DNA of 64,000 bases from a virus, in the IMG/VR virus record IMGVR_UViG_3300046002_004029, positions 1 to 64,000 of that record. One strand, 5' to 3'. The notes under the pieces are model-generated. The model saw only the letters and a list, made by a program, of their open reading frames with translations, had not been told where the DNA came from and did no database searches. Shown in pieces: positions 9,945-21,196 of this stretch (position 1 is its first letter; each line of letters begins with the position of its first letter). Both the position numbers and the translations under genes were made by a program.

Positions 9945-10198
9945 TATTTTTTAGATTTAGTTATTTTATATTTTTTACCACTTTCGCTTTTGGTACCATT
10001 ACCATCGTTGCCTCTGTTCTGCTTAGGGGATTCCCATCTACCATCTTCGTGGTCCCAATCCTTACCTTTACCTTTTGGATCAGCACGATGCCTTCTTTGG
10101 TCGTCTGCTTTCTTTGCTCTTCTATCCGGGGTTTTAGCATAAGCTAAATCTCTCGCTGCTTTATCCTTCGCTGCTTTAGGCGATAATTTCTGTGCCAT
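9944..10198 (-). CDS. Small very basic phage protein (84 aa)
   Basis: An 84-residue protein with about a third Lys plus Arg, containing RRAKKADDQRRHRADPKGKG and DWDHEDGRWESPKQNRGN. Similar small proteins with a KKADNQRR and NRGNDGxGT core occur in other phages, function unknown. It is the first gene of the leftward operon, so its upstream region (10199-10300) should hold the promoter of the whole module. Confidence 0.6.
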   Translation of the reverse strand: MAQKLSPKAAKDKAARDLAYAKTPDRRAKKADDQRRHRADPKGKGKDWDHEDGRWESPKQNRGNDGNGTKSESGKKYKITKSKK

Positions 10199-10253
10199 AC
10201 AATAAGTTTTAATATACTTAATATACTTACGTGCAAAATAAACATCTTACAAC

Positions 10254-10297
10254 GTGACGTTAGCCTACTATTTTTATATATAACTACCTAATGTCAC
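10254..10297. promoter_or_regulatory. GTGAC-type inverted repeat 1
   Basis: The left arm GTGACGTTAG and right arm CTAATGTCAC are complementary except for one position that could form a G-U pair in RNA. A 24-nt AT-rich spacer separates them. It lies upstream of the leftward operon and is one of four related inverted repeats (others at 12477, 12643 and 25251). Operator or RNA hairpin function is inferred. Confidence 0.6.
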
Positions 10298-10370
10298 TCT
10301 TCTACCTTGTGTGTTTACTCTAATAAGATGTAAAAAAATACTGTAAAAATTTTTTTTGTAAAAAAAATAT

Positions 10371-10414
10371 TGTCAGATATATATATGTAATGTGTCAGAT
10401 ATATATATGTAATG
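10371..10414. repeat. Perfect 22-bp tandem direct repeat (2 copies)
   Basis: Two head-to-tail copies of a 22-bp unit beginning TGTCAGATATATATATG occupy 10371-10392 and 10393-10414, after an A/T homopolymer-rich stretch. This is a possible DNA-unwinding or protein-binding site next to the GC-rich block. Confidence 0.85.
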
Positions 10415-10417
10415 TGT

Positions 10418-10798
10418 TACACCCCTATTTCTAAGCTGCCAGCCCTAAAGGGAAACACGTTTCGTTGACCCCACGGGGGTTCCAAGTTCCAGTTTGTACC
10501 AAACGTTTCAGCTTTCGTGTCCCGAACCCTGGGATATTCCTGAGTTTCTGTCTGATGTTCTGTCTTCCCCATCCCCGCACTGGTCCTGCTCCGTGTCTGT
10601 ATCCTGCTCTGGTCCTGTGCCCTGCTCTGTGCCCCGCCTGTGATTGGATCCAACGCGCGTGCCACGTCCGTGATTGTGTCCTTACGATGCGTACGATATG
10701 TTATATGATCCAGTGCATTACGATACGATACAGCTGGCATGTGAGCTGATCCTCGCGTTGTGCATGATATGATACGTGAGCGTTAGCGAACGCAATGT
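10418..10798. other. GC-rich palindrome-rich intergenic region, possible origin
   Basis: About 380 bp with composition unlike the rest of the window. The left part holds short near-perfect palindromes in succession (CCCTAAAGGG, GAAACACGTTTC, CCCCACGGGG). The middle is a pyrimidine-biased tract with recurring CTGCTCTG and CTGTGCCC words (about 10555-10645). The right part has iteron-like repeats of ACGATAC/ACGATATG (about 10681-10765) and ends with a GCGTT/AACGC hairpin (10780-10793). It separates the divergent left and right gene arms. Two weak open frames cross it but look like chance. A replication origin or a structured RNA is the best guess, not proven. Confidence 0.45.
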
Positions 10799-10813
10799 GT
10801 GTATAGCATTTCC

Positions 10814-10847
10814 CTACAGTCTAGATACGATAGGATATTGATAATAT
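10814..10847 (+). promoter_or_regulatory. Early promoter element P1
   Basis: Matches the window-wide element (TTACARTCTRRAYACG, 9 nt, TGATAATAT) with C at the first position. The first rightward gene starts 23 nt later. Confidence 0.75.
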
Positions 10848-10870
10848 ATATGAATCTAAATAATAACATC

Positions 10871-11110
10871 ATGACAAGATTAAATGATCTGAATCCGCAG
10901 ACAAGACTAGACCTAATTGAAGAATCAAGATGGCAGTTCGGACAAGAGCACGTTGCTGAATGTATTGCAGACAACGCTGAGATAAACGGTATGTGCGACT
11001 GGAGTAAGACTAGGCAAGGAGCAGCTTACTGGGCATGGATAGACGCTGGTAGTCCAGATGATTCGATCATCCCTTTTAACAATCGAGTGTTCGATCCGCT
11101 AAGCAACTAA
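10871..11110 (+). CDS. Small hypothetical early protein (79 aa)
   Basis: A 79-residue acidic protein starting MTRLNDLNPQTR, with three Trp in a central WDxxxxGAAYWAWID-like region. I chose the start at 10871 because ATGs further upstream lie inside or just after the promoter element, in the transcription-start zone. It is the first gene of the rightward early region and is followed by a hairpin terminator. No family recognised. Position suggests an early host-takeover protein. Confidence 0.65.
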   Translation: MTRLNDLNPQTRLDLIEESRWQFGQEHVAECIADNAEINGMCDWSKTRQGAAYWAWIDAGSPDDSIIPFNNRVFDPLSN

Positions 11111-11123
11111 CATAAGGATATAG

Positions 11124-11148
11124 GTCCCGGTAAACGGGATCTTTTATT
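11124..11148 (+). terminator. Intrinsic terminator after first early gene
   Basis: A stem TCCCG/CGGGA with loop GTAAA is followed by TCTTTTATT. It lies 14 nt after the stop codon of the first early gene. Confidence 0.65.
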
Positions 11149-11190
11149 GCCCTCTCCCGGGTAATTGGCAGAGCGAAGCATGCGAGCTAG

Positions 11191-11212
11191 CGAGCATCGC
11201 TCGTGTATAGCA
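11191..11212. other. Hairpin plus reversed TGCTATACAC copy before P2
   Basis: CGAGC-ATC-GCTCG forms a short GC hairpin (11191-11203), immediately followed by the minus-strand 10-mer copy at 11203-11212 and, 1 nt later, by promoter P2. A similar hairpin then 10-mer then promoter order is seen at 10780-10847. Confidence 0.6.
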
Positions 11213-11213
11213 C

Positions 11214-11247
11214 TTACAGTCTGAGTACGGAGAGTATTTGATAATAT
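11214..11247 (+). promoter_or_regulatory. Early promoter element P2
   Basis: A full match to the early element with 9-nt spacer. No gene follows before the next promoter 48 nt downstream, so P2 and P3 form a tandem pair. Confidence 0.75.
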
Positions 11248-11294
11248 ATATGAATCAAATAAGTAGTAACAATTTTAAATTAAAATAGAAGTTC

Positions 11295-11328
11295 TTACAA
11301 TCTTAACACGAAGAGTATTTGATAATAT
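11295..11328 (+). promoter_or_regulatory. Early promoter element P3
   Basis: TTACAATCTTAACACG, 9 nt, TGATAATAT. It is followed by a longer A-rich leader (44 nt) before the 123-aa gene. Confidence 0.75.
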
Positions 11329-11372
11329 AAATGTAAGTAAGTAACAAACAAATAACAATAAATAAACAAATT

Positions 11373-11744
11373 ATGAAAAATCAAGTAGAAATTGAAGTAG
11401 TAGAAGTAGAAGTAGTTTTAACTAATAAAGAATTGTTGGCTAATGCGATCGCGAAATTGAGTCCAGAGGACTTGGCATTGATCTATCCACCTATTGAAAG
11501 AGCGAACTTTGTAGTAAGAAAAAGTTGGTTTGGTAGAAATCAAATCATTAGTTTTGTTAACAACAAGAATCAAAGAGTTACCTATAATCACGATGAGGTA
11601 CTTAAGATAATGTTACCTAAATTATCAATAATGCCTTGTTGGATTAAAAGAGAATATTGGTCTCAATCAACTGACTTACCAAGTAATGTTAGAAATACTA
11701 GTGCAATCTTGAGTATTGAACTTCTAGAGCCTACTGAAAAGTAG
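11373..11744 (+). CDS. Hypothetical early protein with acidic N-terminus (123 aa)
   Basis: A 123-residue soluble protein. The first 20 residues are a Val/Glu repeat (EVEVVEVEVV-like), then NKELLANAIAKLSPEDLALIYPPIE and a mixed alpha/beta body. It has its own tandem promoters P2 and P3. No known domain recognised. Codon use and the A-rich leader support it as real. Confidence 0.65.
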   Translation: MKNQVEIEVVEVEVVLTNKELLANAIAKLSPEDLALIYPPIERANFVVRKSWFGRNQIISFVNNKNQRVTYNHDEVLKIMLPKLSIMPCWIKREYWSQSTDLPSNVRNTSAILSIELLEPTEK

Positions 11745-11778
11745 GTTTTAGGTTTCCTAACGGAAAATGCTATACACT

Positions 11779-11812
11779 TTACAGTCTGGGTACGACCCAA
11801 TAACGATAATAA
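11779..11812 (+). promoter_or_regulatory. Early promoter element P4
   Basis: TTACAGTCTGGGTACG, 9 nt, CGATAATAA. It begins 1 nt after a plus-strand TGCTATACAC copy. The next gene starts 23 nt later. Confidence 0.65.
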
Positions 11813-11835
11813 TAATGAATCTAAAAACAAACAAT

Positions 11836-12060
11836 ATGAGTCTAGTTAAAAACACTGCAACGAATGCGGCTGAATTGTACAAATTACTATCCAAAGCGGA
11901 TGCTATACAACATCCAAGCTTCTGGCCCAACCCAGGACTAAACAGAATGGATCTATTATTGAATCCTGCCGCAACAGATGCGGTCGTATATGAACGCGAT
12001 GGAAGCGATTACACGATCTCTATCAAGAGTATTACTAACATTGTAACATACGAGAACTAA
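11836..12060 (+). CDS. Small hypothetical early protein (74 aa)
   Basis: A 74-residue protein from MSLVKNTATNAAELYKLL. A longer reading from 11767 would pass through promoter P4 and was rejected. It contains HPSFWPNPGLNRMDLLL and a beta-rich end (DYTISIKSITNIVTY). The stop overlaps the next start by 1 nt (TAATG). Function unknown. Confidence 0.65.
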   Translation: MSLVKNTATNAAELYKLLSKADAIQHPSFWPNPGLNRMDLLLNPAATDAVVYERDGSDYTISIKSITNIVTYEN

Positions 12061-12236
12061 TGAAAGAACTAATCAAATATGCAGCCCAGATGGCCTCAAA
12101 ATATCCATCTAAATTGAATGAAATAAATGATCTGTTACAATTATGTAAGGATGAAATTGACCAAGGAGGATCTGAATCCCACGAGATAGAATTATGTGCT
12201 GAAGATATTAAACAAACCTGTGAAGATGATGAATAA
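12060..12236 (+). CDS. Small acidic hypothetical protein (58 aa)
   Basis: A 58-residue acidic, probably helical protein starting MKELIKYAAQMASKYPSK, with two Cys and an acidic CEDDE end. It starts on the last base of the previous stop (TAATG) and overlaps the next gene, so it fits the dense early operon. No family recognised. Confidence 0.6.
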   Translation: MKELIKYAAQMASKYPSKLNEINDLLQLCKDEIDQGGSESHEIELCAEDIKQTCEDDE

Positions 12237-12471
12237 AGTAGCTTATTTTGCGAGCGGTATCATTATGGGTGCATTAATGATCGGTATTGGAACAAGTGTT
12301 AAACAACAACAACCAAAACCACATCCAAGACACGAGATTGTGTTCTTATGGAATGATGATGATGAATCCATACCTAAAGACGGGACCATGATTATGATCC
12401 AAGAGACTGTAGGAGATACAATCTGGATTGGTCCAAATGATGATGAGGAAACTTATGATTATACTAATTAA
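12226..12471 (+). CDS. Small membrane-anchored protein (81 aa)
   Basis: The first codons are ATGATG inside the end of the previous gene. I place the start at 12226 rather than 12196. A single N-terminal transmembrane helix (VAYFASGIIMGALMIGIGTSV) is followed by an acidic tail with WNDDDE and DDEETYDY. The early timing and single-pass topology suggest an inner-membrane effector, for example superinfection exclusion, but this is inference only. Confidence 0.6.
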   Translation: MMNKVAYFASGIIMGALMIGIGTSVKQQQPKPHPRHEIVFLWNDDDESIPKDGTMIMIQETVGDTIWIGPNDDEETYDYTN

Positions 12472-12476
12472 AAATA

Positions 12477-12519
12477 GTGACATTAGCCTGTTATTTGTAG
12501 TTTAATAGGCTTTTGTCAC
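12477..12519. promoter_or_regulatory. GTGAC-type inverted repeat 2
   Basis: GTGACATTAGCCT pairs with AGGCTTTTGTCAC around an internal TTA/TTT mismatch. It lies just after the membrane-protein gene, so it may act as a hairpin or an operator. Confidence 0.65.
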
Positions 12520-12698
12520 ACTTTTAGCGAATAGCTTAAATGCTATACACCGGCCTGACTTTGTAATATAGTCGGAAGAGTAGACTCCGTCCAACTTTAT
12601 ATTTAAAGATGCTATACACCGCAGGTGATTAGATCAATTATAGTGACATTAGCCTACTACTTTATTACCTTAATACCCTATTGTCACATTATTCACTT
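12520..12698. other. Intergenic region with two 10-mers and inverted repeat 3
   Basis: No convincing gene. It holds two TGCTATACAC copies only 69 bp apart (12541 and 12610) and the third GTGAC-type repeat at 12643-12687 (GTGACA arms, about 33-nt spacer with TTAGCC and an imperfect partner). It leads directly into promoter P5. Confidence 0.6.
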
Positions 12699-12732
12699 TT
12701 ACAGTCTGAATACGGATCAATATTGATAATAT
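12699..12732 (+). promoter_or_regulatory. Early promoter element P5
   Basis: TTACAGTCTGAATACG, 9 nt, TGATAATAT. The next start codon is 26 nt downstream. Confidence 0.8.
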
Positions 12733-12758
12733 ATATGAATCTAAAAATAATAAAGAAT

Positions 12759-13034
12759 ATGGATACTATAATAGAAAGTAGAGAAATTATAAGATGCTCC
12801 GCAGATGACCGATATATATTGGTAGTCAAAGCACAAGGACTTATAATTGGATTAAATTTTATGCAAGGATGTGAAATAGGAGAATTAGATTATTTTAGAA
12901 AAGAGTATGCAAGCATCGACTATGAATTAACTAATTTCTACAATGCTATACACCAGTCTTTAAGCGGATCTACGGAGATCGACCGTATTAATCAGGCAAT
13001 GTGGGGATATGTTAACTTCTCTAATCCTTGTTAA
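12759..13034 (+). CDS. Hypothetical early protein (91 aa)
   Basis: A 91-residue soluble protein starting MDTIIESREIIRCSADD. The start was chosen 26 nt after promoter P5, since the longer reading begins inside the promoter. It carries a TGCTATACAC copy in the Ala-Ile-His frame. Single-gene transcription unit with about 130 bp to the next gene. Function unknown. Confidence 0.6.
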   Translation: MDTIIESREIIRCSADDRYILVVKAQGLIIGLNFMQGCEIGELDYFRKEYASIDYELTNFYNAIHQSLSGSTEIDRINQAMWGYVNFSNPC

Positions 13035-13104
13035 TTCGTAAGGTACTGAGAGACACTACATTATACCTCTCTTACTTTTAATACTAATAAACAGTTAATA
13101 ACCC

Positions 13105-13138
13105 TTACAATCTGAATACGATAGCGAATTGATAATAT
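13105..13138 (+). promoter_or_regulatory. Early promoter element P6
   Basis: TTACAATCTGAATACG, 9 nt, TGATAATAT. It drives the run of small genes from 13165. Confidence 0.8.
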
Positions 13139-13164
13139 ATGTGTAACAAATTAAAACTAACATT

Positions 13165-13263
13165 ATGAGTGAGATTGAATTAATGGAATTGATTGCGGAA
13201 GAGACAGTTTATATACGTGAATGGCGTGATTCTCTTACTATTGAACAAATAAATAGTATATAA
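13165..13263 (+). CDS. Very small early protein (32 aa)
   Basis: A 32-residue acidic peptide (MSEIELMELIAEETVYIREW then DSLTIEQINSI). It starts 26 nt after promoter P6 and its stop overlaps the next start (TAATG). The spacing matches the other promoter-start pairs, which supports it although it is tiny. Confidence 0.5.
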   Translation: MSEIELMELIAEETVYIREWRDSLTIEQINSI

Positions 13264-13445
13264 TGAGTATGCATGGTACTACCTCTGATGACCTAGATAT
13301 TTTGACTCGTGAAGAGTTGATCGAGTGGTTATGTTGGAATGATAGAAATGGTTGTTACCGTGACGATGAAGCTACAGCCGAATTCGGGGAAATATTACCC
13401 TATGAGGAAGCATATTGGATAGCGAAAAGACAAATTAACCAGTAA
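13263..13445 (+). CDS. Small acidic hypothetical protein (60 aa)
   Basis: A 60-residue acidic protein starting MSMHGTTSDDLDIL, with a TREELIEWLCWNDRNG segment and a YEEAYWIAKRQ end. Likely helical. Overlaps the previous stop by 1 nt and precedes the next gene by 11 nt. No family recognised. Confidence 0.6.
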   Translation: MSMHGTTSDDLDILTREELIEWLCWNDRNGCYRDDEATAEFGEILPYEEAYWIAKRQINQ

Positions 13446-13456
13446 AATACAATAAA

Positions 13457-13672
13457 ATGAGTGAAAAAAGTAGTATAATTTATCGTGGTTTCGAATTTGA
13501 TTTCGAATTTAACTACACACCGGGTAGACCACAAACTTGGGAAGATCCAGAAGAATATGAAGAATGGGAGATATATAATATCACCTTAAATGGAGTTGAT
13601 GCAGATGACCTGTTAGACCCTATGTTGCAGGATTTTGAAATTGAAGTAATTAATAACCTTAAAGATAATTAA
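13457..13672 (+). CDS. Small very acidic hypothetical protein (71 aa)
   Basis: A 71-residue protein rich in Glu, Asp, Phe and Tyr, beginning MSEKSSIIYRGFEFDFEF and containing WEDPEEYEEWEIYNI. The charge and early position recall phage DNA-mimic or inhibitor proteins, but no family match is claimed. It is followed after 1 nt by the next gene. Confidence 0.6.
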   Translation: MSEKSSIIYRGFEFDFEFNYTPGRPQTWEDPEEYEEWEIYNITLNGVDADDLLDPMLQDFEIEVINNLKDN

Positions 13673-13673
13673 A

Positions 13674-13883
13674 ATGACAAATAAAGAATGGTATTTAAGT
13701 CTATCTAATGACTTACAAGATAAAGTGGCACATAATTGTAACTCACTTAATGAGTACTATAGATTCGCCCAATGGTATGATGATAAAAAGGGCGCCTCTA
13801 TATGCGGAGCGTTTTGTTGGGATGATTCTATTGAAGGTAATGAATTTTGGTATGGTGTTTATAAAACAATGGAGAACTTATGA
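13674..13883 (+). CDS. Small hypothetical protein (69 aa)
   Basis: A 69-residue protein starting MTNKEWYLSLSNDLQDKV, with NSLNEYYRFAQWYDDKKG and FCWDDSIEGNEFW, rich in aromatic residues. Its stop (TGA) overlaps the next start (ATGA). An overlapping 61-aa frame from 13708 is a shadow. Function unknown. Confidence 0.6.
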   Translation: MTNKEWYLSLSNDLQDKVAHNCNSLNEYYRFAQWYDDKKGASICGAFCWDDSIEGNEFWYGVYKTMENL

Positions 13884-13978
13884 GAAATTATAGTAAAGCA
13901 TTTAAAATTCTTTTGGCAAGAATTATGTATGAATTGAGAGAAGCCGGGAGATCAGCGGCGTATGCTATACACAGGTAA
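13880..13978 (+). CDS. Very small basic protein (32 aa)
   Basis: A 32-residue basic peptide (MRNYSKAFKILLARIMYELR, then EAGRSAAYAIHR) that starts with an ATGA overlap and ends on a TGCTATACAC copy read as Ala-Ile-His. The coupled start supports translation. No function can be proposed. Confidence 0.45.
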   Translation: MRNYSKAFKILLARIMYELREAGRSAAYAIHR

Positions 13979-13981
13979 GAC

Positions 13982-14161
13982 ATGGAAACTTTTAAAAAAG
14001 AATTCGAAACAAAAGGCGGTAGCGGTTATTTATTAATCACTAAACGAGATGAAACAGGTAGAAACGATACTTATGACATTATAGTTGAAGAAGTATATAC
14101 ATTCCATAATGAGGATGAGGTTATACGTCAAGTAGAAAGTGATATATATAAATATTTATAA
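13982..14161 (+). CDS. Small hypothetical protein (59 aa)
   Basis: A 59-residue mixed-charge protein starting METFKKEFETKGGSGYLL and ending VIRQVESDIYKYL. The pattern suggests a small alpha/beta domain. It sits 3 nt after the previous gene and 7 nt before the next. Not recognised. Confidence 0.55.
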   Translation: METFKKEFETKGGSGYLLITKRDETGRNDTYDIIVEEVYTFHNEDEVIRQVESDIYKYL

Positions 14162-14168
14162 AGAAATT

Positions 14169-14342
14169 ATGGCAAAATTTACAGTAAAAATAACAGAAAC
14201 TTTGGTTAAAGAAATAGCAGTAATCGCTAGCAATCCAGATATGGCAGTTGGAATAGTGGCGCGAATGTATCGCGATGAAGACGTGGTATTAGATTATGCA
14301 GATTTTGACGAAGTGAACTTTGAAATAATTATAACAGAGTAA
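14169..14342 (+). CDS. Small hypothetical protein (57 aa)
   Basis: A 57-residue protein starting MAKFTVKITETLVKEIAV and ending DEVNFEIIITE, a beta-alpha-beta pattern. I chose this ATG over one at 14139, which would read through the end of the previous gene. The context AAATT-ATG is typical of the other early genes. Confidence 0.6.
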   Translation: MAKFTVKITETLVKEIAVIASNPDMAVGIVARMYRDEDVVLDYADFDEVNFEIIITE

Positions 14343-14343
14343 T

Positions 14344-14628
14344 ATGAAACTAATAGAAGTAAGTAAGCAAGGGAATTTATATTTCCAAATGAGTGATGGT
14401 CGATTTGGTATTATATACCCGAAGAGTGGTTATGTTAGAGTAAGCGGTAAAGGTGCAACAAGAAGTAATATGCACTTCCCATTTAGACTATGGCAGATCA
14501 ATAAGGTGGCTAAAGAGGATTATAGAACTAAAGCGGGAGTATCTAGAGTATTGATACCATCCGTAAAAGAACAGTTTGAAACGTTGTTAAAGTTTGACAA
14601 CAGAAATTGTGGTGGCCTTACAATCTAA
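14344..14628 (+). CDS. Hypothetical early protein (94 aa)
   Basis: A 94-residue basic protein: MKLIEVSKQGNLYFQMSDGR, GIIYPKSGYVRVSGKG, then KVAKEDYRTKAGVSRVLIPS. Its last four codons run into promoter P7, so the end of this gene doubles as the promoter upstream box. Similar length and position to other unknown early genes. No family recognised. Confidence 0.6.
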   Translation: MKLIEVSKQGNLYFQMSDGRFGIIYPKSGYVRVSGKGATRSNMHFPFRLWQINKVAKEDYRTKAGVSRVLIPSVKEQFETLLKFDNRNCGGLTI

Positions 14629-14651
14629 ACACGATTAAGTATTGATAATAT
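14618..14651 (+). promoter_or_regulatory. Early promoter element P7
   Basis: TTACAATCTAAACACG, 9 nt, TGATAATAT. The upstream box overlaps the 3' end of the previous gene. The next start is 24 nt downstream. Confidence 0.8.
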
Positions 14652-14675
14652 ATATGAATCTAAAATAAACAAACT

Positions 14676-14858
14676 ATGAAAAAATCAATTAAATTCTTAA
14701 AGAATAACTTTATTAAACTTGATGGAGTGCTATACACACCCTACTTATTGAGTGATCTACCAACAACTTTTGGTTTCAATTTTAATAAAGAAAAAGATCA
14801 AGACGGATATGGCGAATGGTTTAATTTCAAAGGTTTAACCTATATAATCAAGAAATAA
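14676..14858 (+). CDS. Small hypothetical protein (60 aa)
   Basis: A 60-residue basic protein starting MKKSIKFLKNNFIKLDGV and ending FNFKGLTYIIKK. It carries a TGCTATACAC copy read as Val-Leu-Tyr-Thr. First gene behind promoter P7 and followed after 1 nt by the next gene. Function unknown. Confidence 0.6.
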   Translation: MKKSIKFLKNNFIKLDGVLYTPYLLSDLPTTFGFNFNKEKDQDGYGEWFNFKGLTYIIKK

Positions 14859-14859
14859 T

Positions 14860-15108
14860 ATGATAGAGATAGCGAACAATATGAAAGAAGCGTGCCAATA
14901 TCTAGAGGAAAAGAAGGCTCGTAATCGCGCTAATAGAATTTCTGTGGTAAATACAGATGGTCTGTGTGCAGAGTTTAATAGTGATGATTATAAACAAATC
15001 AAGACAAAAATGAAGTCGTCATATGGCGCAAAAGCAAGTGTATTTAGTAAAACAAAGTTGTGGAATCACTACAACTTAACATTAACAGAAATTAAAGAAA
15101 AATATTAA
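14860..15108 (+). CDS. Hypothetical early protein (82 aa)
   Basis: An 82-residue protein with a helical, basic N-terminal part (MKEACQYLEEKKARNRANRIS) and a C-terminal part ending NLTLTEIKEKY. It sits in the P7 operon with 1-nt spacing on both sides. I recognise no family. Confidence 0.6.
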   Translation: MIEIANNMKEACQYLEEKKARNRANRISVVNTDGLCAEFNSDDYKQIKTKMKSSYGAKASVFSKTKLWNHYNLTLTEIKEKY

Positions 15109-15109
15109 A

Positions 15110-15397
15110 ATGAAAGAAATTGTAACAAAATTTAGTGAAAAAGTATTGGTTGAAAACATTGATAACAGCAGTATCGTAGGCATTCAATGGGGAAGTAGTA
15201 ACAAATCCCTTGTAATTGAGGCAAGAGACGGAGGCTTTACAGGCTTAGGTAATTGTAGCAGTAGATTATCACTTAGCAGTTGTTGGGTTGCTGATACTCA
15301 GAAGGAATATGTAGAAAGATCTTTAGGTCAGAGAATGGAAGTCAAAGCTTTTGAGTTTGAAACAGTAACTGCCGCGCTTAAATGGTTTAGTAAATAA
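15110..15397 (+). CDS. Hypothetical early protein (95 aa)
   Basis: A 95-residue protein, beta-rich in the first half (KFSEKVLVENIDNSSIVGIQWG, SNKSLVIEARDGG), with a Ser/Cys-containing centre and a C-terminal helix (FETVTAALKWFSK). No catalytic motif seen. P7 operon. Confidence 0.6.
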   Translation: MKEIVTKFSEKVLVENIDNSSIVGIQWGSSNKSLVIEARDGGFTGLGNCSSRLSLSSCWVADTQKEYVERSLGQRMEVKAFEFETVTAALKWFSK

Positions 15398-15405
15398 CAG
15401 AAATT

Positions 15406-15600
15406 ATGGCAAAGTTAACTGGATTTGAAAGTTATTTAGTTATTCAGGGATTGAATGATTTAAGAGACAAAATGGTATTAGATATTATTGAAATAGAACG
15501 CAACGGAAAAAATCCGTTGATGACTAAAGAGTATGTAAAAATTACTATAGAGGAAGTTATGGAAAAGATTTTGCTATACACTTATAAAACTAAACGATAG
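15406..15600 (+). CDS. Small helical hypothetical protein (64 aa)
   Basis: A 64-residue protein starting MAKLTGFESYLVIQGLND, mostly helical, ending LLYTYKTKR over a TGCTATACAC copy. The next two genes also have helical starts with similar polar and hydrophobic spacing, and the gene at 15902 has a related NxFExxVIxxxLxxLR pattern, hinting at diverged paralogues. Confidence 0.55.
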   Translation: MAKLTGFESYLVIQGLNDLRDKMVLDIIEIERNGKNPLMTKEYVKITIEEVMEKILLYTYKTKR

Positions 15601-15605
15601 AAATT

Positions 15606-15905
15606 ATGGCTGAAACAACAGGACAATTAGATAAATTACTAAGTGATAAAATAGACGAAAAGATTAGAGTGTTTGGGCAGTATTTAACGGAACAAATTTC
15701 TCAATTTTTAAAAGACAATGAAGACTACTCTGGAGATCATTTATATATGGTTAATGGTGGAACTGTTAATGAACCTAATTTTTCCTATGAATCTTTGGCT
15801 ATATTTAAAAGAAATATGATAAAAGGCATTTCTAAACAAGTAAAGGATAAAATGATCCTTAAGGAAACTAAAGCATTGTTAAAAAAACTAGAATTACTAT
15901 CATGA
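15606..15905 (+). CDS. Hypothetical early protein (99 aa)
   Basis: A 99-residue helical, lysine-rich protein: MAETTGQLDKLLSDKIDEKI, FGQYLTEQISQFLKDNED and a C-terminal KQVKDKMILKETKALLKKLELL helix with heptad-like leucines. It overlaps the next gene by 4 nt. No family recognised. Confidence 0.6.
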   Translation: MAETTGQLDKLLSDKIDEKIRVFGQYLTEQISQFLKDNEDYSGDHLYMVNGGTVNEPNFSYESLAIFKRNMIKGISKQVKDKMILKETKALLKKLELLS

Positions 15906-16093
15906 GAACACTGAATACTTTTGAAGTTAACGTCATTGAAGCGGCGTTAACTCACCTTAGAGAAATGCACGATGACCTTAAAAAAGGAACTGAAGATTTT
16001 GTAGATATAGAATTTAGTAATGATGTAGTTATAACTTGCGAGGAACTTTTAAGAATGTTTAAAAACGAAGGTATATTCACTTATGAAAACTAA
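15902..16093 (+). CDS. Small helical hypothetical protein (63 aa)
   Basis: A 63-residue acidic helical protein starting MRTLNTFEVNVIEAALTHLREMHDDL. The pattern of its first 30 residues resembles the protein at 15406 (FESYLVIQGLNDLRDKM), so the two may be paralogues. ATGA-type overlap upstream and an 11-nt overlap downstream. Function unknown. Confidence 0.55.
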   Translation: MRTLNTFEVNVIEAALTHLREMHDDLKKGTEDFVDIEFSNDVVITCEELLRMFKNEGIFTYEN

Positions 16094-16301
16094 ATATATT
16101 GCAATGAGAAACGGTAAAGTCCTTGATTGGTCAGTGCTATACACATATGCCGTGGATAAAGGATTAACTGTGCCACCTGAACTATTTATGGCAGGAGCAC
16201 AAGGATTAGATATTAACGAACTGCTAGATCAATTAGATAAAGAATTTGAATTAACAACCTTATGGGGTAAAGACGGATCATTCATAAAAGTAGTAGAATA
16301 A
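16083..16301 (+). CDS. Small hypothetical protein (72 aa)
   Basis: A 72-residue protein starting MKTKYIAMRNGKVLDWSV, with a TGCTATACAC copy read as Val-Leu-Tyr-Thr and a C-terminal LDQLDKEFELTTLWGKDG. Overlaps both neighbours (11 nt upstream, 1 nt downstream), which fits a translationally coupled operon. Not recognised. Confidence 0.55.
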   Translation: MKTKYIAMRNGKVLDWSVLYTYAVDKGLTVPPELFMAGAQGLDINELLDQLDKEFELTTLWGKDGSFIKVVE

Positions 16302-16627
16302 TGGAAAAGAAATATAAACGTAATAAAAACGGGGAAGTAGAGGTTGGGGTACTAATATCCGCTGGATTTGGCGCTGGATGGAGTACTTGGGGAATGCCCG
16401 AAGAAGCCTTATTTGACCCAATTATAATAGATTTTGTTGAAAATGACAAACTTTTTACATCCGAATTTGATGAGTATATAGAAAATACTTATAACGACTG
16501 TTATAGCGGTGGAAGTGGTGGTTTATATGTTTGTTGGATACCCGAAGGCAAGGAATTTAGAATAGATGAATATGACGGAGCTGAAAGTTTAGTATTAAAA
16601 AATGACCAATCTTGGATAATAGCGTAG
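16301..16627 (+). CDS. Hypothetical early protein (108 aa)
   Basis: A 108-residue acidic, aromatic- and glycine-rich protein with GVLISAGFGAGWSTWG near residues 17-32 and YSGGSGGLYVCWIPEGKEF near 69-87. The GAGWSTWG and GGSGGLYVCWIPEG motifs look like a conserved fold that I know from other phages but cannot name. Its stop precedes promoter P8 by 1 nt. Confidence 0.65.
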   Translation: MEKKYKRNKNGEVEVGVLISAGFGAGWSTWGMPEEALFDPIIIDFVENDKLFTSEFDEYIENTYNDCYSGGSGGLYVCWIPEGKEFRIDEYDGAESLVLKNDQSWIIA

Positions 16628-16661
16628 TTACAATCTGGACACGAATAACAATTGATAATAT
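16628..16661 (+). promoter_or_regulatory. Early promoter element P8
   Basis: TTACAATCTGGACACG, 9 nt, TGATAATAT. It starts immediately after a stop codon. The next gene starts 27 nt downstream. Confidence 0.8.
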
Positions 16662-16688
16662 AAATGTAACAAATTAAAAATAAACAAA

Positions 16689-16910
16689 ATGAAAGAGAAT
16701 TTAACAGCATTAATGAGTATATTAGATGAATTAAGTATTGACCCAGATTCATTCTATGTAATTAGCATTAGACAAGGATATGTTTCTTTGCAAGGTGAGT
16801 TTAACTCCACTATATCCAGCTATTTAATAAAAAAAGGTTTTATAGCAAGCTTTAGTATGTCGGGTTATCCTCAGTATATTTTAGGCGTAATTGAAGTAAC
16901 CTTAACATAA
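16689..16910 (+). CDS. Small hypothetical protein (73 aa)
   Basis: A 73-residue protein starting MKENLTALMSILDELSID, alpha then beta (FYVISIRQGYVSLQGEF) with a hydrophobic end (YILGVIEVTLT). First gene behind P8. No motif recognised. Confidence 0.6.
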   Translation: MKENLTALMSILDELSIDPDSFYVISIRQGYVSLQGEFNSTISSYLIKKGFIASFSMSGYPQYILGVIEVTLT

Positions 16911-16915
16911 CAATT

Positions 16916-17083
16916 ATGACAAATGAACAGTTAGCTTTTCAAAATGCAATAGCTTTTGAACAGTGGATGAGGAATACAGTAAAGACAATACATTATGCAA
17001 ATAATGAAAAAATGTCTGAGGCTTATAATAGAGTTATGAAAAATTATTTAGAATTGAAATTATATGAGAATGTTAAACGATAA
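16916..17083 (+). CDS. Small helical hypothetical protein (55 aa)
   Basis: A 55-residue helical protein starting MTNEQLAFQNAIAFEQWM and ending YLELKLYENVKR. It is 5 nt after the previous stop and overlaps the next gene by 20 nt. It fits the operon spacing and codon use of its neighbours. Function unknown. Confidence 0.5.
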   Translation: MTNEQLAFQNAIAFEQWMRNTVKTIHYANNEKMSEAYNRVMKNYLELKLYENVKR

Positions 17084-17297
17084 AGAGGAAGAATTAACAA
17101 GATTAGCAGTACTTGAGGGTATGACTGATATGATGGATCATTTAGCTATAGACTTTAAAGTAAATTGGAGAAGTATAACTGTTCATCAAAGAAAACGGTT
17201 TGGTGATATTGAGGAGTTGCTATACACACTTTGCGTAGAGATGGTTGAAGATCACGGAGTCTTACAGTCTAAATACGATCCAGAAACGATAATATAA
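17064..17297 (+). CDS. Small hypothetical protein (77 aa)
   Basis: A 77-residue helical acidic protein (MLNDKEEELTRLAVLEGMTD, then VNWRSITVHQRKRFGD). It contains a TGCTATACAC copy read as Leu-Leu-Tyr-Thr, and its last eleven codons are promoter P9 itself. The true start could be 17064 or 17070. Not recognised. Confidence 0.5.
   Translation: MRMLNDKEEELTRLAVLEGMTDMMDHLAIDFKVNWRSITVHQRKRFGDIEELLYTLCVEMVEDHGVLQSKYDPETII
17262..17295 (+). promoter_or_regulatory. Early promoter element P9
   Basis: TTACAGTCTAAATACG, 9 nt, CGATAATAT, entirely inside the 3' end of the preceding gene. The next start is 22 nt downstream. Confidence 0.75.
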
Positions 17298-17317
17298 ATG
17301 AACTTAAAACAAATATA

Positions 17318-17749
17318 ATGGAAAAAATTAATAAATTATTTGAAGCGGAAGTAATACAAATTACGGAGTCATATCCTAGTATTTACTCTAAGGGTGATGT
17401 GGTATCCCTATTAGTTACTTTAAGGCATCGTGCCCTACTAGTAATAAATGAGGAACTTAATGGACTGGTAGATGTGGCATTAGCAGAACGAGGATTAGGG
17501 TTTATTACAATAGACCATATGGAAGAGTTTATGTCTTCAGTTAGCGAAAGTTTAGAAAAATCAATATCACACGGCGAAATAGAATTAGTTGATAATAATA
17601 ACATTGAATTATCAATGAGTTATGATAATCACGTAACTGTAGAATGTGTTGAAATAGATACAGATACTTTATGCAGAGAATTGGAAGATATAATGAGAAA
17701 TGAATATGGAGAATTATTAAATTCTTTAAAAATAAAAGAAGATGAGTAA
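17318..17749 (+). CDS. Hypothetical early protein (143 aa)
   Basis: A 143-residue acidic protein, mostly helical: MEKINKLFEAEVIQITESYP, VVSLLVTLRHRALLVINEELNG, then SVSESLEKSISHGEIEL and a Glu-rich end. No enzymatic motif. Behind P9 and overlapping the next gene by 8 nt. Confidence 0.6.
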   Translation: MEKINKLFEAEVIQITESYPSIYSKGDVVSLLVTLRHRALLVINEELNGLVDVALAERGLGFITIDHMEEFMSSVSESLEKSISHGEIELVDNNNIELSMSYDNHVTVECVEIDTDTLCRELEDIMRNEYGELLNSLKIKEDE

Positions 17750-18005
17750 AGAGCGTGAAAAATTGGAAGTACCTAAATGGTTCACCGGTCAAGTATATGA
17801 AAGCGGTGATACAGTAAGAAATCCATTCAGTGGCGATAGTTATTATCTATCTGGGCCTGAGCTGAGTATGTATGACTTCATTATGGGGTGTAATTATATA
17901 TTAGAAAGGGGACAAGGTCACGATAAAATGTTAGCAGAATTTCATAAAGGTCTTACTTGGTTTAGAAGAGCAAACCCAGAAGCATATATGGTTTTATTAG
18001 ATTAA
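17742..18005 (+). CDS. Hypothetical early protein (87 aa)
   Basis: An 87-residue protein starting MSKEREKLEVPKWFTGQVYE. It has GDTVRNPFSGDSYYLSGPELSMYDF followed by MGCNYILERG and WFRRANPEAYMVLLD. I have seen phage proteins with the YELSPLELSMYDFIMG-type core, function unknown. Its 5' end overlaps the previous gene by 8 nt. Confidence 0.65.
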   Translation: MSKEREKLEVPKWFTGQVYESGDTVRNPFSGDSYYLSGPELSMYDFIMGCNYILERGQGHDKMLAEFHKGLTWFRRANPEAYMVLLD

Positions 18006-18021
18006 TGTAAAAATATAAATT

Positions 18022-18459
18022 ATGGACGCAACAGAATTAGTGAATATATTGTTTGAAAATGGCGGATTTACATATAATTGTAAAACTAAAGAACTTAATC
18101 CAAATGAAGGATACTTTGTGTCAATGGTCGGTGAGGGTCAGGTTTATAATGTTAATGGCTTCCATCATTTTGATATACTCGAATACTATGCTATACACAG
18201 TGAATTATTATCTAGAGGTGATACATTTCTAGGTGGGTGGATATATCAAGACGAAGTATATTTAGATGTGAACGTATCGACATTATCAATTGAAAAAGCT
18301 ATCTATAGAGGTATGATTAATGACCAAAAAGTGATCTACGATGCTTATAACAAAACAGAGATTAAACTACCTAATCGTCAAAAATCAGGTACTGAAACTC
18401 AACAAAAAGCATATAATACAATGAAAGCAGAACAATTAGCAAATGAATTAATAAGTTAA
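18022..18459 (+). CDS. Hypothetical early protein (145 aa)
   Basis: A 145-residue protein starting MDATELVNILFENGGFTYN, with GEGQVYNVNGFHHFDILEYY and GDTFLGGWIYQDEVYLDVNVS. The layout resembles small phage proteins paired with a LELTRLFPSEEA-type end (here KAYNTMKAEQLANELIS). It carries a TGCTATACAC copy (Ala-Ile-His). It ends 4 nt before the tmRNA 5' end, so the two are probably co-transcribed. Confidence 0.6.
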   Translation: MDATELVNILFENGGFTYNCKTKELNPNEGYFVSMVGEGQVYNVNGFHHFDILEYYAIHSELLSRGDTFLGGWIYQDEVYLDVNVSTLSIEKAIYRGMINDQKVIYDAYNKTEIKLPNRQKSGTETQQKAYNTMKAEQLANELIS

Positions 18460-18463
18460 ATAA

Positions 18464-18816
18464 GGGGGCGAATGGCTTTGACAGGTTATGCAAACTAATA
18501 CAATCAGCCAGAGAGATAACTGTAAACTAAGGTGAATTTAATAAATGACAACACAGTAAAATTGTTAGACATCAATCAGATTGAGGCTAATATGAATATG
18601 GTTTTTGCATTGATTAACTCTAATGTTGAAGAGCTAGAAATAGCTGCGTAGTAGACATTAACAAGATTTCTTGGTTAGATTAAATCAAGTGGTGGTTTTG
18701 TCTACACTAGTAGACCCCAGTTGTATGATACTCCAACTTTAAAACCGTATCGACAAGCTGTATAAATTGTATTAACTAAAGTAATCTGGACCTGGGTTCG
18801 AAACCCAGCGCCTCCA
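18464..18816 (+). ncRNA. ssrA: Phage tmRNA (SsrA RNA)
   Basis: A 353-nt RNA. The 5' end GGGGGCG is complementary to CGCCTCC at 18809-18815 (one G-U), followed by discriminator A and no encoded CCA. After the acceptor comes GGCTTTGACAGG, the conserved tmRNA 5' motif. Near the 3' end are TGGAC and a perfect T arm CTGGG-TTCGAAA-CCCAG. The open frame ends VEELEIAA with two TAG stops (18649-18654). If GCT at 18586 is the resume codon the tag has 21 residues, but the resume site is not fixed by the sequence. It rescues stalled ribosomes and tags nascent chains for proteolysis. No smpB was seen in the window. Confidence 0.93.
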
Positions 18817-18949
18817 CAACTGTTATTTGATCTTAGTGCTAGGAAAATAACAAGCGATTGGACGGAACTAAGCGTCTCGAATTGCCCTGTAACAACTCAG
18901 TGTTACCAGATAAGATAGGTTTGAATCCAAGTATGTGAAGTCTTATCAA
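18817..18949 (+). ncRNA. Structured RNA of four consecutive hairpins
   Basis: No gene. Four hairpins follow each other: GTTATTT/AAATAAC (18823-18851), CGATT-GGACG/CGTCT-CG-AATTG (about 18854-18883), CTGTAAC/GTTACCAG with a bulge (about 18887-18909), and GATAAGA/TCTTATC (18910-18946) enclosing a GTTTGAATCC word. It lies between the tmRNA and the first tRNA-like element and is probably transcribed with them. It may be a processing region or a separate RNA. No known family was assigned. Confidence 0.5.
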
Positions 18950-18951
18950 AT

Positions 18952-19076
18952 GGTCAAGTGGTGGAATTGGTAGACACTAAACAACTGTATTGAGGTTAAG
19001 CGATCCTCACTTTAATAAAAAAATTGATCAACGCAGAAGTGCGGATGCGGTACAGGTTCGAATCCTGTCTTGACCA
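18952..19076 (+). ncRNA. Oversized tRNA-like element A (125 nt)
   Basis: The acceptor stem GGTCAAG/CTTGACC (18952-18958 with 19069-19075), discriminator A, a class II Leu-like D region (TGGTGGAATTGGTAGACAC) and a perfect T arm ACAGG-TTCGAAT-CCTGT (19052-19068) are clear. The RNA is 30-40 nt longer than a tRNA-Leu. No standard 7-nt anticodon loop can be placed. Candidate stems are CTAAAC/GTTAAG, with one mismatch and a 12-nt loop, or TGAGG/CCTCA with a 9-nt loop. A CGCA-GAAG-TGCG variable-arm-like hairpin is present. It could be an intron-bearing tRNA, a decayed tRNA, or a tRNA-mimic RNA. Confidence 0.65.
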
Positions 19077-19153
19077 CGATGTCGGATAGCGACCGAATGA
19101 ACTTAGTGGTAACAACGGAATAACCTAAGAGAGATTGACAAAAACTCCGTACA
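19077..19153 (+). other. Spacer between tRNA-like elements A and B
   Basis: Contains a hairpin CTTAG/CTAAG (about 19100-19131) and the word AACTTAGTGG, which recurs before element C. GATTGA also occurs here and again 20 nt later as the acceptor strand of B. Confidence 0.4.
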
Positions 19154-19246
19154 GATTGAGCGGTAGAATGGCTAACTATCTATACCGATTCGGTTAGAGG
19201 CAAAAGAAAATAAGCCCTATTGCAGGTTCGAGTCCTGTCTCAATCA
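19154..19246 (+). ncRNA. tRNA-like element B (93 nt)
   Basis: The acceptor GATTGAG/CTCAATC (19154-19160 with 19239-19245), discriminator A and T arm GCAGG-TTCGAGT-CCTGT (19222-19238) are well formed. The D region is too short (GGTAGAATGGCT). The anticodon-arm position shows CTAAC/GTTAG enclosing 16 nt, in which ACCG-ATT-CGGT is self-complementary. A GGC/GCC variable-arm-like stem follows. No anticodon can be assigned with confidence. The 3' flank CTAATAAT matches that of element C. Confidence 0.6.
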
Positions 19247-19310
19247 CTAATAATTAAATTAAATACTATGACTAATGTAAACTTAGTGGAAACACTATAA
19301 ACATAACAAT

Positions 19311-19487
19311 AACTAAGTGGCGGAATAGTTTAGCTTGTACCGCAAACGCAAGTGCTTAACGGATAAGCTTAAATAGTACAGACGCAAAAAGATAAGGATA
19401 GAGTCATCGCGGGTGTGGAATGGAAAAAGCCCGTTCGAGTCCTTACTTGGAAATCCACAAATGTAGGTTCGAGCCCTACCTTAGTTA
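19311..19487 (+). ncRNA. Oversized tRNA-like element C (177 nt)
   Basis: The acceptor AACTAAG/CTTAGTT (19311-19317 with 19480-19486), discriminator A, a Leu-like GTGGCGGAATAG D region and T arm GTAGG-TTCGAGC-CCTAC (19463-19479) are clear. About 90 extra nt are distributed in nested stems: TTTAGCTT/AAGCTTAAA in the D-loop position, CGGG/CCCG, and TGTGGA/TCCACA in the variable position, the last enclosing a second GTTCGAGTCC word. An upstream ACTTAGT (about 19290) could compete with the acceptor strand ACTAAGT. Identity unknown. Confidence 0.55.
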
Positions 19488-19615
19488 CTAATAATAAACG
19501 CTATAGTAAAAGTTTTTGCTATACACAACCGCTTGCTAATCAATTAATAATAAAATAAATGTTTACAGTTAATGTAAGTTTCAGCGTAAACACGTAATAA
19601 TATAAATATAACCAA
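19488..19615 (+). other. Intergenic leader with one TGCTATACAC copy
   Basis: AT-rich, no gene. It holds the 10-mer at 19517 and a weak promoter-like stretch (about 19579-19607, TTTCAGCGTAAACACG then TAATAATAT) that lacks the fixed 9-nt spacer of the other promoters. Confidence 0.4.
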
Positions 19616-20047
19616 ATGGAAATAGATATGAATATAACGAGTTGGTCAAACAAAGACCTTGAAGCATTATGTATACCTGAAAACCACAAAATTGTTTTTG
19701 ATGGATTTGAGTATTGGTGGATGCATAAAATACATGGGAACAAATGGGAACTACATTGCATTGAAGGATTTAATGATTGGAAGAAACCTTATAGTTGGCT
19801 TAAAGAATGGCTTTACAAATGGAGTCAAGAATTAAGTTTAAGAAAAATAGAGTCTTCCTCTATGTATCTTAATAAAATGAAAGAGTCTTTAGAGTCTACA
19901 AAACAAGTATTAATTATTAGTAATAATAAAAAGTTAAAGACTAAAGATAAAATTAAAATGATACAGGAACTTTTGCCTGAAGAATCGGTAACTTTTATAG
20001 CTAATGTACTTAATATAAGTAGACAAGCAATACATAGACACTTATAA
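19616..20047 (+). CDS. HTH-containing protein next to HNH nuclease (143 aa)
   Basis: A 143-residue protein: a Trp-rich first half (HKIVFDGFEYWWMHKIHGNK, WLKEWLYKWSQELS), a basic linker, and a C-terminal helix-turn-helix (TFIANVLNISRQAIHRHL, about 126-143). The next gene, 1 nt downstream, is an HNH endonuclease, so the pair may be a mobile nuclease with its DNA-binding partner, inserted between two structured-RNA blocks. Start could also be residue 5. Function is inferred. Confidence 0.6.
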   Translation: MEIDMNITSWSNKDLEALCIPENHKIVFDGFEYWWMHKIHGNKWELHCIEGFNDWKKPYSWLKEWLYKWSQELSLRKIESSSMYLNKMKESLESTKQVLIISNNKKLKTKDKIKMIQELLPEESVTFIANVLNISRQAIHRHL

Positions 20048-20048
20048 T

Positions 20049-20492
20049 ATGAAAGCTTTAACAAAAGAACAAAAAGTAAAAAAAGCAATAAAAGATAAGG
20101 AATGGGTTGCTAATAATAAAGCAAAAGTAAATGAATATAAAAGAATATACAAAGCAAATAGAATAAAAACAGATCCAAATTTTAAATTATTAAATTTACT
20201 TAGATCAAGATTATATCATAGTTTTAAAGCATCACAATGGATGAAATCAGATAAAAGAGAAGCTTTATTAGGTGCAAATATTATTACAGTAAAAGCGCAT
20301 ATTGAATCTTTATTTACTGAGGGTATGAATTGGGATAATATGGGTGAATGGCATATAGATCATATACTACCCATTGGCAAATGTGAATCTTTAGAAGAAA
20401 TGGTAAATAGATGTAACTATAAAAATCTACAACCTTTATGGGCAATAGATAATCTTAAAAAGTCTTGCAGTTTAAACACGAATATAAAATGA
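20049..20492 (+). CDS. HNH homing-type endonuclease (147 aa)
   Basis: A 147-residue basic protein. The N-terminal 55 residues are Lys-rich and helical (DNA contact). The C-terminal HNH motif is WHIDHILPIGK (about 103-113) with NYKNLQPLWAIDNLKKS (about 126-142), matching the H...N...N zinc/metal-binding nuclease core of phage HNH enzymes. It probably makes a site-specific cut and acts as a mobile gene. It is located between tRNA-like RNA blocks, a classic site for such insertions. Its 3' end overlaps promoter P10. Confidence 0.85.
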   Translation: MKALTKEQKVKKAIKDKEWVANNKAKVNEYKRIYKANRIKTDPNFKLLNLLRSRLYHSFKASQWMKSDKREALLGANIITVKAHIESLFTEGMNWDNMGEWHIDHILPIGKCESLEEMVNRCNYKNLQPLWAIDNLKKSCSLNTNIK

Positions 20493-20498
20493 TAATAT
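20465..20498 (+). promoter_or_regulatory. Early promoter element P10
   Basis: TTGCAGTTTAAACACG, 9 nt, TGATAATAT. It overlaps the end of the HNH gene. The KTSC-domain gene starts 21 nt downstream. Confidence 0.7.
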
Positions 20499-20519
20499 TA
20501 ATATATAAAAACAAATAAT

Positions 20520-20744
20520 ATGAATGTAAATTTAATTGAAAAACTAGAAGTAAACAGTAGCGCTATCTTTGAAGTTGCTTACTATCCTAATGTTGAAAGA
20601 TTATTTATAACTTTCAAAAATGGTAGAGAATATGAATACTTAAATGTACCTATTCATATTATGTGTGGCTTACGTGAAGCATCGTCTAAAGGTAAATTTC
20701 TTAACAAGTATGTTTTAGCACAATACAGGTTTAAGAAAGTATAG
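20520..20744 (+). CDS. KTSC-domain protein (74 aa)
   Basis: A 74-residue single-domain protein of the KTSC type: VNSSAIFEVAYYPNVERLFITF (about 11-32), the GREYEYLNVP strand and a KFLNKYV end that corresponds to the family GKxxNxxI motif. KTSC domains are small beta proteins common in phages and bacteria, often fused to nucleases or RNA-modifying enzymes, with no settled function. It has its own promoter. A TGCTATACAC copy begins 2 nt after its stop. Confidence 0.85.
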   Translation: MNVNLIEKLEVNSSAIFEVAYYPNVERLFITFKNGREYEYLNVPIHIMCGLREASSKGKFLNKYVLAQYRFKKV

Positions 20745-20756
20745 TTGCTATACACG

Positions 20757-20928
20757 GTCCTTGCTATTACTTGGGTGAAATAGTCGACTCAGGGTGCAGT
20801 GAGTTCGTTAAACAAGAACTGTACAAAATGTGGACACTCGGGGTTACGTGAAAATTAACCAAGCCTTGCTAGCTGGTTGTAACTGAAATATGGGATAAAG
20901 AATTTAACCGGTCCTCGGATTAACAAAA
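20757..20928 (+). ncRNA. Highly structured leader RNA upstream of element D
   Basis: About 170 nt with no gene and many consecutive stems: CTATT/AATAG, ACTCA/TGAGT, AGTTC/GAACT, GTTAC/GTAAC enclosing AACCA-A-GC/GC-TGGTT, and TTAACCG/CGG-A-TTAA. Together with element D it forms a 268-nt structured unit. I looked for group I intron core elements and could not align them convincingly. Possibly a novel RNA or a diverged intron. Confidence 0.5.
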
Positions 20929-20929
20929 G

Positions 20930-21023
20930 AACTAAGTACTGGGCTAAATGTATCCTGTTCATTTAACGGAATGCCGGCATGTTACAACCGACGGGTTTTG
21001 GGGTTCGATTCCCCTTTTAGTTC
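20930..21023 (+). ncRNA. tRNA-like element D (94 nt)
   Basis: The acceptor AACTAAG/TTTAGTT (20930-20936 with 21016-21022, one G-U), discriminator C, and T arm GGGG-TTCGATT-CCCC (21000-21014) are visible. GTAC/GTAT could be a D stem. The middle holds TCC-T-GTT/AAC-GGA around CATTT and the palindrome ATGCCGGCAT. CAT could be read as a Met anticodon, but the stem is irregular. It shares its acceptor strand with element C. It could be a diverged or intron-bearing tRNA. Confidence 0.55.
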
Positions 21024-21037
21024 CTAAATTAAATATC

Positions 21038-21196
21038 ATGAGTAGGACAGTAAAACAACAGTACAGAAAATCTAGAAGATTTGATAAGCAATGCCGAAAT
21101 AATGGCTGTTGTAGTTATTGTAAGGGTAATAGACTACATAGTTCAAATACAAGAATACAAGCAGCGTCTTACAGTCTGAACACGATTGTAAAATGA
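21038..21196 (+). CDS. Small Cys-rich basic protein (52 aa)
   Basis: A 52-residue basic protein with RKSRRFDKQCRNNGCCSYCKGNRLHS. The four closely spaced cysteines suggest a zinc knuckle. I know similar short KxYRKSxxFDxxCRNHGSCxYCxGNR proteins from Bacteroidetes phages, function unknown. A longer frame from 20948 would read through tRNA-like element D and is rejected. Its last codons overlap promoter P11. Confidence 0.65.
   Translation: MSRTVKQQYRKSRRFDKQCRNNGCCSYCKGNRLHSSNTRIQAASYSLNTIVK

Follow-up and report, generated by a model that had tools for sequence, protein, structure and literature searches.

Identification of a phage-borne tmRNA

A 64,000-nucleotide stretch of viral DNA (the window), part of an IMG/VR virus record of 67,575 bases, was suggested by its initial annotation to carry a tmRNA with an unusual tag ending in EIAA, which raises the questions of whether the gene is genuine, where its tag begins and what a phage would do with a tag of its own. 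The roles suggested for tmRNAs in phages range from keeping translation running to the selective breakdown of proteins of the host (PMC9004378).

The proposal was borne out by comparison with the Rfam tmRNA model: cmscan matched RF00023 over its full length (model positions 1-374) to 18464-18819 on the + strand, scoring 77.4 bits (E 2.5e-28) against a gathering cut-off of 47 bits. The span of 18464-18816 originally given for the gene is exact, its last base being the discriminator A73; the following three bases, 18817-18819, read CAA, so the CCA end is not encoded. The RNA begins GGGGGCG and its 3' end reads CTGGGTTCGAAACCCAGCGCCTCCA-CAA. The acceptor, T arm and 5' motif are as had been pointed out, and in an alignment of relatives the acceptor stem covaries, a lack of such covariation having been named beforehand by the initial annotation among the observations that would refute the claim. 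ARAGORN, also put forward as a check, reported no tmRNA anywhere in the window; this program overlooks some long-tag phage tmRNA genes or shortens their tags. The tmRNA is real and phage-borne, and is a variant with a long tag (Table 1).

Table 1. Positions of the tmRNA, its structural elements and adjacent features in the window
Feature	Position	Strand	Evidence
One-piece tmRNA (ssrA), 353 nt through discriminator A73	18464-18816	+	Rfam RF00023; 31-sequence covarying alignment
Acceptor stem, 5' strand GGGGGCG	18464-18470	+	Pairs with 18809-18815; 100% paired, 31 sequences
H2 outer helix, 5' strand	18483-18489	+	4/7 pairs compensatory, 97% paired; partner 18781-18787
H2 inner helix, 5' strand TACAATCAGC	18499-18508	+	Partners 18757-18760 and 18766-18771; 98-99% paired, compensatory changes
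PK1-position element CAGAGAGATAACTGTAAACTAAGGTGAA, S1 stem CAG/CTG	18509-18536	+	Near-invariant across family; S1 covaries
Probable tag reading frame, 34 codons, DNTVKLLDINQIEANMNMVFALINSNVEELEIAA	18547-18648	+	Host-like resume context; in-frame pN/pS
Probable resume codon GAC	18547-18549	+	Conserved resume signal after PK1 element
Conserved tag core QIEANMNMVFALI (Q..ANM..V)	18577-18615	+	78/80 unique tags; core pN/pS; predicted helix
Two tandem TAG stops	18649-18654	+	Sequence
First post-tag hairpin CTTGGTT-AGATTA-AATCAAG	18670-18689	+	Outer four pairs all compensatory, 98% paired
Second post-tag hairpin GTCTAC-ACTA-GTAGAC	18700-18715	+	5/6 pairs compensatory, 80% paired
H2 inner helix, 3' strand GCTGTATAAATTGTA	18757-18771	+	Covarying alignment
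H2 outer helix, 3' strand	18781-18787	+	Covarying alignment
T arm CTGGG-TTCGAAA-CCCAG	18792-18808	+	100% paired, with both bases changed in 3/5 pairs
Acceptor stem, 3' strand CGCCTCC, with G3.U70 wobble	18809-18815	+	G-U in 31/31
Hypothetical gene	18022-18459	+	ORF list; stop 4 nt 5' of tmRNA
Promoter-like repeated motif ACAGTCTAAATACGA, copy nearest upstream of tmRNA	17264-17278	+	Repeat count; putative promoter

RNA structure

The fold was examined in the alignment of 31 sequences, in which 45 base pairs were assigned to the acceptor, H2, the first stem of PK1, two hairpins 3' of the tag and the T arm. At these positions 96.3% of cells were paired, compared with 37-50% when the structure was slid along the alignment, a generous control in that the structure had been read from the same 31 sequences. 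Compensatory changes, involving both sides of a pair, are the stronger evidence for the fold; they were found in 25 of the 45 pairs, against a mean of 10.8 for shuffled alignments and 6-8 for slid versions, and the covariation score was 0.263 as opposed to 0.03-0.05 after sliding. H2, which joins the tRNA-like and mRNA-like domains, accounts for 17 pairs (97-99% paired, nine compensatory), whilst the S1 stem of the PK1-position element occurs in the variants GCAG/CTGC, CCAG/CTGG and ACCG/CGGT. The second stem of PK1 was not identified in this alignment because its region is nearly invariant. Where PK2-PK4 belong, 3' of the tag, two covarying hairpins are seen.

Start and extent of the tag

The reading frame ends VEELEIAA followed by TAG TAG, as originally described. 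The initial annotation had translation resuming at GCT 18586, from which a tag of 21 residues is correctly counted; however, GAC 18547, where the conserved signal for resumption is found, is 39 nt further upstream. In 31 host tmRNAs the resume codon (GGC, GGA or GAC) directly follows TTTAAAT, TTAATT or TTTAAAC. Just beyond the PK1 element the phage RNAs have the corresponding signal, for which the window reads AATAAAT|GAC and other members TTAAAT|GGC or TTTAAAC|GGA. Starts picked solely on this context put the ANM core in frame at 119 of the 120 loci, even though the distance from the PK1 element to the start (10, 11, 12 or 13 nt) spans all three phases. Therefore GAC 18547 is the best-supported resume codon, and the tag probably comprises 34 coded residues rather than 21. 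A reading frame opening 5' of GAC was ruled out, both by the shifts of 1-2 nt in the PK1 distance between members and by an in-frame stop three codons upstream in 34 of the 120 loci.

Alanine is the usual first tag codon in many bacteria, and ARAGORN begins the tags of relatives at internal positions (e.g. ANAQIEANM and ANMNKVF), as would be expected if a genuine tmRNA were decoded from GCT 18586 or another internal alanine codon to give a tag of about 21 residues. We nevertheless regard an internal start as very unlikely: the ARAGORN tag calls disagree between near-identical members, and GCT 18586 is remote from the signal after which the Flavobacteriaceae tmRNAs resume.

Distribution of long-tag tmRNAs

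An exact pattern made from the window's own 22-nt 5' end matched zero IMG/VR contigs, a relaxed form of it matched 86 IMG/VR stretches, and a pattern for the PK1-position element gave at least 119 matches. Among the 120 loci with a complete tag there are 80 unique tags, with a median length of 35 residues (range 24-49); 75 of them end in AA and 78 have Q..ANM..V. The group is defined by this motif in the tag together with the PK1-position motif GAGATAACTG...AACTAAGGTGAA, and the window has both. The EIAA ending recurs in the close relatives L118 and L143, with EMAA in L108. A terminase matching that of the window (phrog_6681) is encoded by 37 of 40 tested contigs, hence the tmRNA belongs to one broad phage assemblage; the majority of terminase relatives show no tmRNA, many of these records being fragments.

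Other phage tmRNA-like loci (on L132, L172, L166, L170 and L299) have long frames without the QxxANM core, with endings such as LLATETVATEESVYAMAA; the tag of L299 is 49 residues long. Five tmRNA-bearing contigs (G110, G114, G118, G123 and G124) have one TAG or TAA within the large-terminase frame, which could represent stop recoding, introns or errors.

Selection on the tag

Pooled over whole tags, pN/pS was 0.555 in the tag frame and 1.18 and 1.06 in the other two. The equivalent values for the 13-codon core were 0.40 in frame and 0.84 and 1.27 out of frame, although these sequences were pre-selected for Q..ANM..V, which lowers pN, making the whole-tag set, gathered with looser motifs, the fairer test. 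The core Ala, Asn and Val codons vary at their third bases. Hence the tag evolves as a protein, and this frame-specific signal makes it unlikely that the conservation arose by chance or acts purely on the RNA. The N-terminal segment is weakly constrained, with pN/pS of 0.6-0.85 in most groups and 1.77 in one group of five, and the tags appear modular, combining N-terminal segments, the core and acidic C-terminal tails of varied length in different ways.

AlphaFold2, given 24 aligned tags, predicted a single helix over residues 2-33 with a mean pLDDT of 77, rising to 92 over residues 11-20, which for a chain of 34 residues is weak evidence. The spacing of the hydrophobic residues I/V2, M6, V9 and L/I13 fits an amphipathic helix in the core. 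No match to the tag was found among PHROG families or PDB sequences, and an origin as a copied segment of a phage protein was rejected, the core motif being absent from the long ORFs (2.5 million translated residues).

The weak constraint on the N-terminal segment, along with the shortness of the RNA between tag and H2 in many members, where two hairpins are visible, is what might be anticipated of an ordinary tmRNA in which a tag with no special role grew as the middle pseudoknots were lost, only the C-terminal AA being of importance. This is rather unlikely given that QxxANMxxV has been retained in 78 of the 80 unique tags despite synonymous codon changes, and that pN/pS in frame falls well under the out-of-frame values.

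Comparison with known tmRNAs

The tag was correctly noted as unusual relative to those of hosts: all 31 readable host tags, mostly sampled from the Zeaxanthinibacter family, Flavobacteriaceae, have nine residues (GENNYALAA and similar) and end in AA, mostly as ALAA, which rules out long tags being shared by these hosts. Host ssrA of the standard RF00023 form resembles the phage RNA in its GGGG acceptor start, T arm, H2 and resume context, as well as in a first tag residue of Gly or Asp and a C-terminal AA. However, the Flavobacteriaceae RNAs are approximately 395-400 nt long and score 125-162 bits, compared with 77 for the window and 88 for the Cellulophaga phage phi38:1, whereas the long-tag phage RNAs are approximately 315-440 nt long, with a different PK1 sequence and a tag that has a helical core by prediction.

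Two groups of named phages have similar RNAs. A tmRNA scoring 87.6 bits, unannotated in KC821614, was found in phi38:1; this RNA, and that previously reported in Calle (PMC8776804), belong to the same family as the window RNA, sharing the PK1 element and a QIEANM core, but their 30-residue tag, GNNTNAVNAQIEANMEAVNAILNLEVAVGV, ends in VGV. Hence a C-terminal degron is not universal. Fpv1 and FpV4 (Fipvunavirus, infecting Flavobacterium psychrophilum) also have an unannotated tmRNA, 412 nt long, with a 35-residue tag, GNTNNSVVSLEDNAQVEANMNMAFSLIREDVAVAA, that differs from that of the window in ending AVAA.

Phage tmRNAs as such are known already: 402 of 18,146 phage genomes carry one (PMC9004378), and those of mycobacteriophages (Bxz1, Wildcat and others) and of Bacillus phage G, which have other hosts, are described in the available parts of PMC4131195, which mention no long conserved tag. 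Permuted two-piece tmRNAs, in which the tRNA-like 3' part comes first, are likewise phage-carried; one is reported in Melnitz (PMC9004378), and that reported in the Maribacter phage Panino (PMC11590407) is apparently another, as the 3' part precedes the 5' part in its annotation (1558-1890 of L364, PP540027), in a genome of the window's terminase group. ARAGORN assigned tags of 9-10 residues, such as GEQVEMAMAA, to permuted tmRNAs on L107, L112, L121, L137, L138 and L142. In the sections consulted of the 2025 tmRNA database paper (PMC11915505), the commonest tag length is given as ten residues and it is very short tags that are remarked upon. Nowhere does the open-access literature searched describe a phage tag that is long and has a conserved helical core, and its relevant passages make no mention of long conserved phage tags.

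Possible role of the tag

We think it likely that the phage RNA takes part in host-assisted trans-translation, adding a phage-specific tag made up of a docking helix and an EIAA degron. A G3.U70 pair is the alanine identity element recognised by AlaRS, through which the host enzyme would charge the RNA. No SmpB gene was detected, either in the record itself or among 40 relatives, by a search that was positive for 10 of 14 well-known control genomes; the RNA would therefore presumably have to work with host SmpB. In infected cells it would then enter ribosomes that had stalled on broken messages, with translation resuming at GAC 18547, and alanine plus the 34-residue tag would be appended in place of the nine-residue GENNYALAA-type tag of the host; the peptide expected to be found joined to other proteins is, for example, NAQIEANMEAVNAILNLEVAVGV. 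The EIAA end may be read as a C-terminal hydrophobic-AA degron, preceded by a putative phage-specific amphipathic helix with the QxxANMxxV core that would dock a partner, whether a host or phage adaptor, a protease or another factor. The initial annotation had proposed that the RNA might keep ribosomes free when the host shuts down, or might route tagged proteins to a different protease; the conserved core, predicted to be helical, lends some indirect support to the second of these. More broadly, and somewhat less probably than otherwise, a large group of Bacteroidetes phages may have reprogrammed trans-translation from a short degron to a docking helix plus degron, such that stalled proteins, including those of the host, are captured by a partner of the phage's choosing.

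The altered C termini, EIAA and VGV, would also suit a decoy, either competing with host tmRNA for SmpB and AlaRS or adding a poor degron that shields proteins from host ClpXP, and a phage RNA consisting solely of the tRNA-like domain (DS6A-like) does inhibit tmRNA, according to the part of PMC4131195 citing Mao 2009. We consider such a function quite unlikely, since titrating SmpB needs no long selected reading frame and AA is retained by 75 of the 80 tags. That the RNA is chiefly a messenger for a free 34-residue effector, made either on stalled complexes that are almost empty or by starting at the invariant AUG inside the tag, is scarcely credible despite the selection on the peptide and the invariant ATG within the core, as this methionine suits the hydrophobic face of the helix and the Q, A and N upstream are just as invariant.

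The EIAA ending singled out by the initial annotation is a small part of something more interesting that it had overlooked: a tag body that is long, conserved and selected as protein. The tags of tmRNAs are thought of as degrons. Those of this large phage group, at 24-49 residues, have a protein-selected middle, which says that the tag itself acts specifically in infection and suggests that phages have made it more than a 'destroy me' label. The QxxANMxxV motif, simple mutants and phages in culture with their Cellulophaga hosts (phi38:1 and Calle) offer handles on its function.

Genomic setting

PHROG matches in the record include a terminase, portal, primase-helicase and ribonucleotide reductase. 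The named terminase relatives infect Flavobacteriia of the genera Flavobacterium (elemo), Cellulophaga, Maribacter and Tenacibaculum, with one uncultured podovirus at 64% in addition, and because of these relatives a member of the Flavobacteriia is probably the host. The hypothetical gene upstream of the tmRNA has no Pfam match. As the tmRNA starts just 4 nt past the stop codon of this gene, it is probably cotranscribed with it and cut from the longer transcript by 5' processing.

A promoter-like motif, ACARTCTRNNTACGA with TTGATAATATAAATG-like sequence after it, is present in nine copies 5' of gene runs (10816-21185), against 0.28 expected in the window. The sequence TGCTATACAC occurs 20 times in the window (10799-35522), 18 of these on the + strand, compared with an expectation of 0.15; the copies lie both within ORFs, in various frames, and in intergenic DNA. 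There are 15 copies in G117 (the L133 contig) and six in G001, with zero in phi38:1, Fpv1 and elemo.

Adjoining the tmRNA downstream are tRNA-like genes with oversized middles, at 18952-19076, 19154-19248, 19311-19490 and 20928-21025. The first has an insert of 69 nt by Rfam (38 bits); ARAGORN, with introns allowed, called it as tRNA-Tyr and gave the intron as 32 nt. The other three, for which the score threshold had been lowered, were called as Arg, Thr and Lys with introns of 3, 106 and 65 nt respectively. The inserts are too short to be group I introns. Portions of this array are also found in L108 and L152. The closest named terminase relative (L083, MW202828.1) has annotated GroEL and GroES-like genes at 8937-10827.
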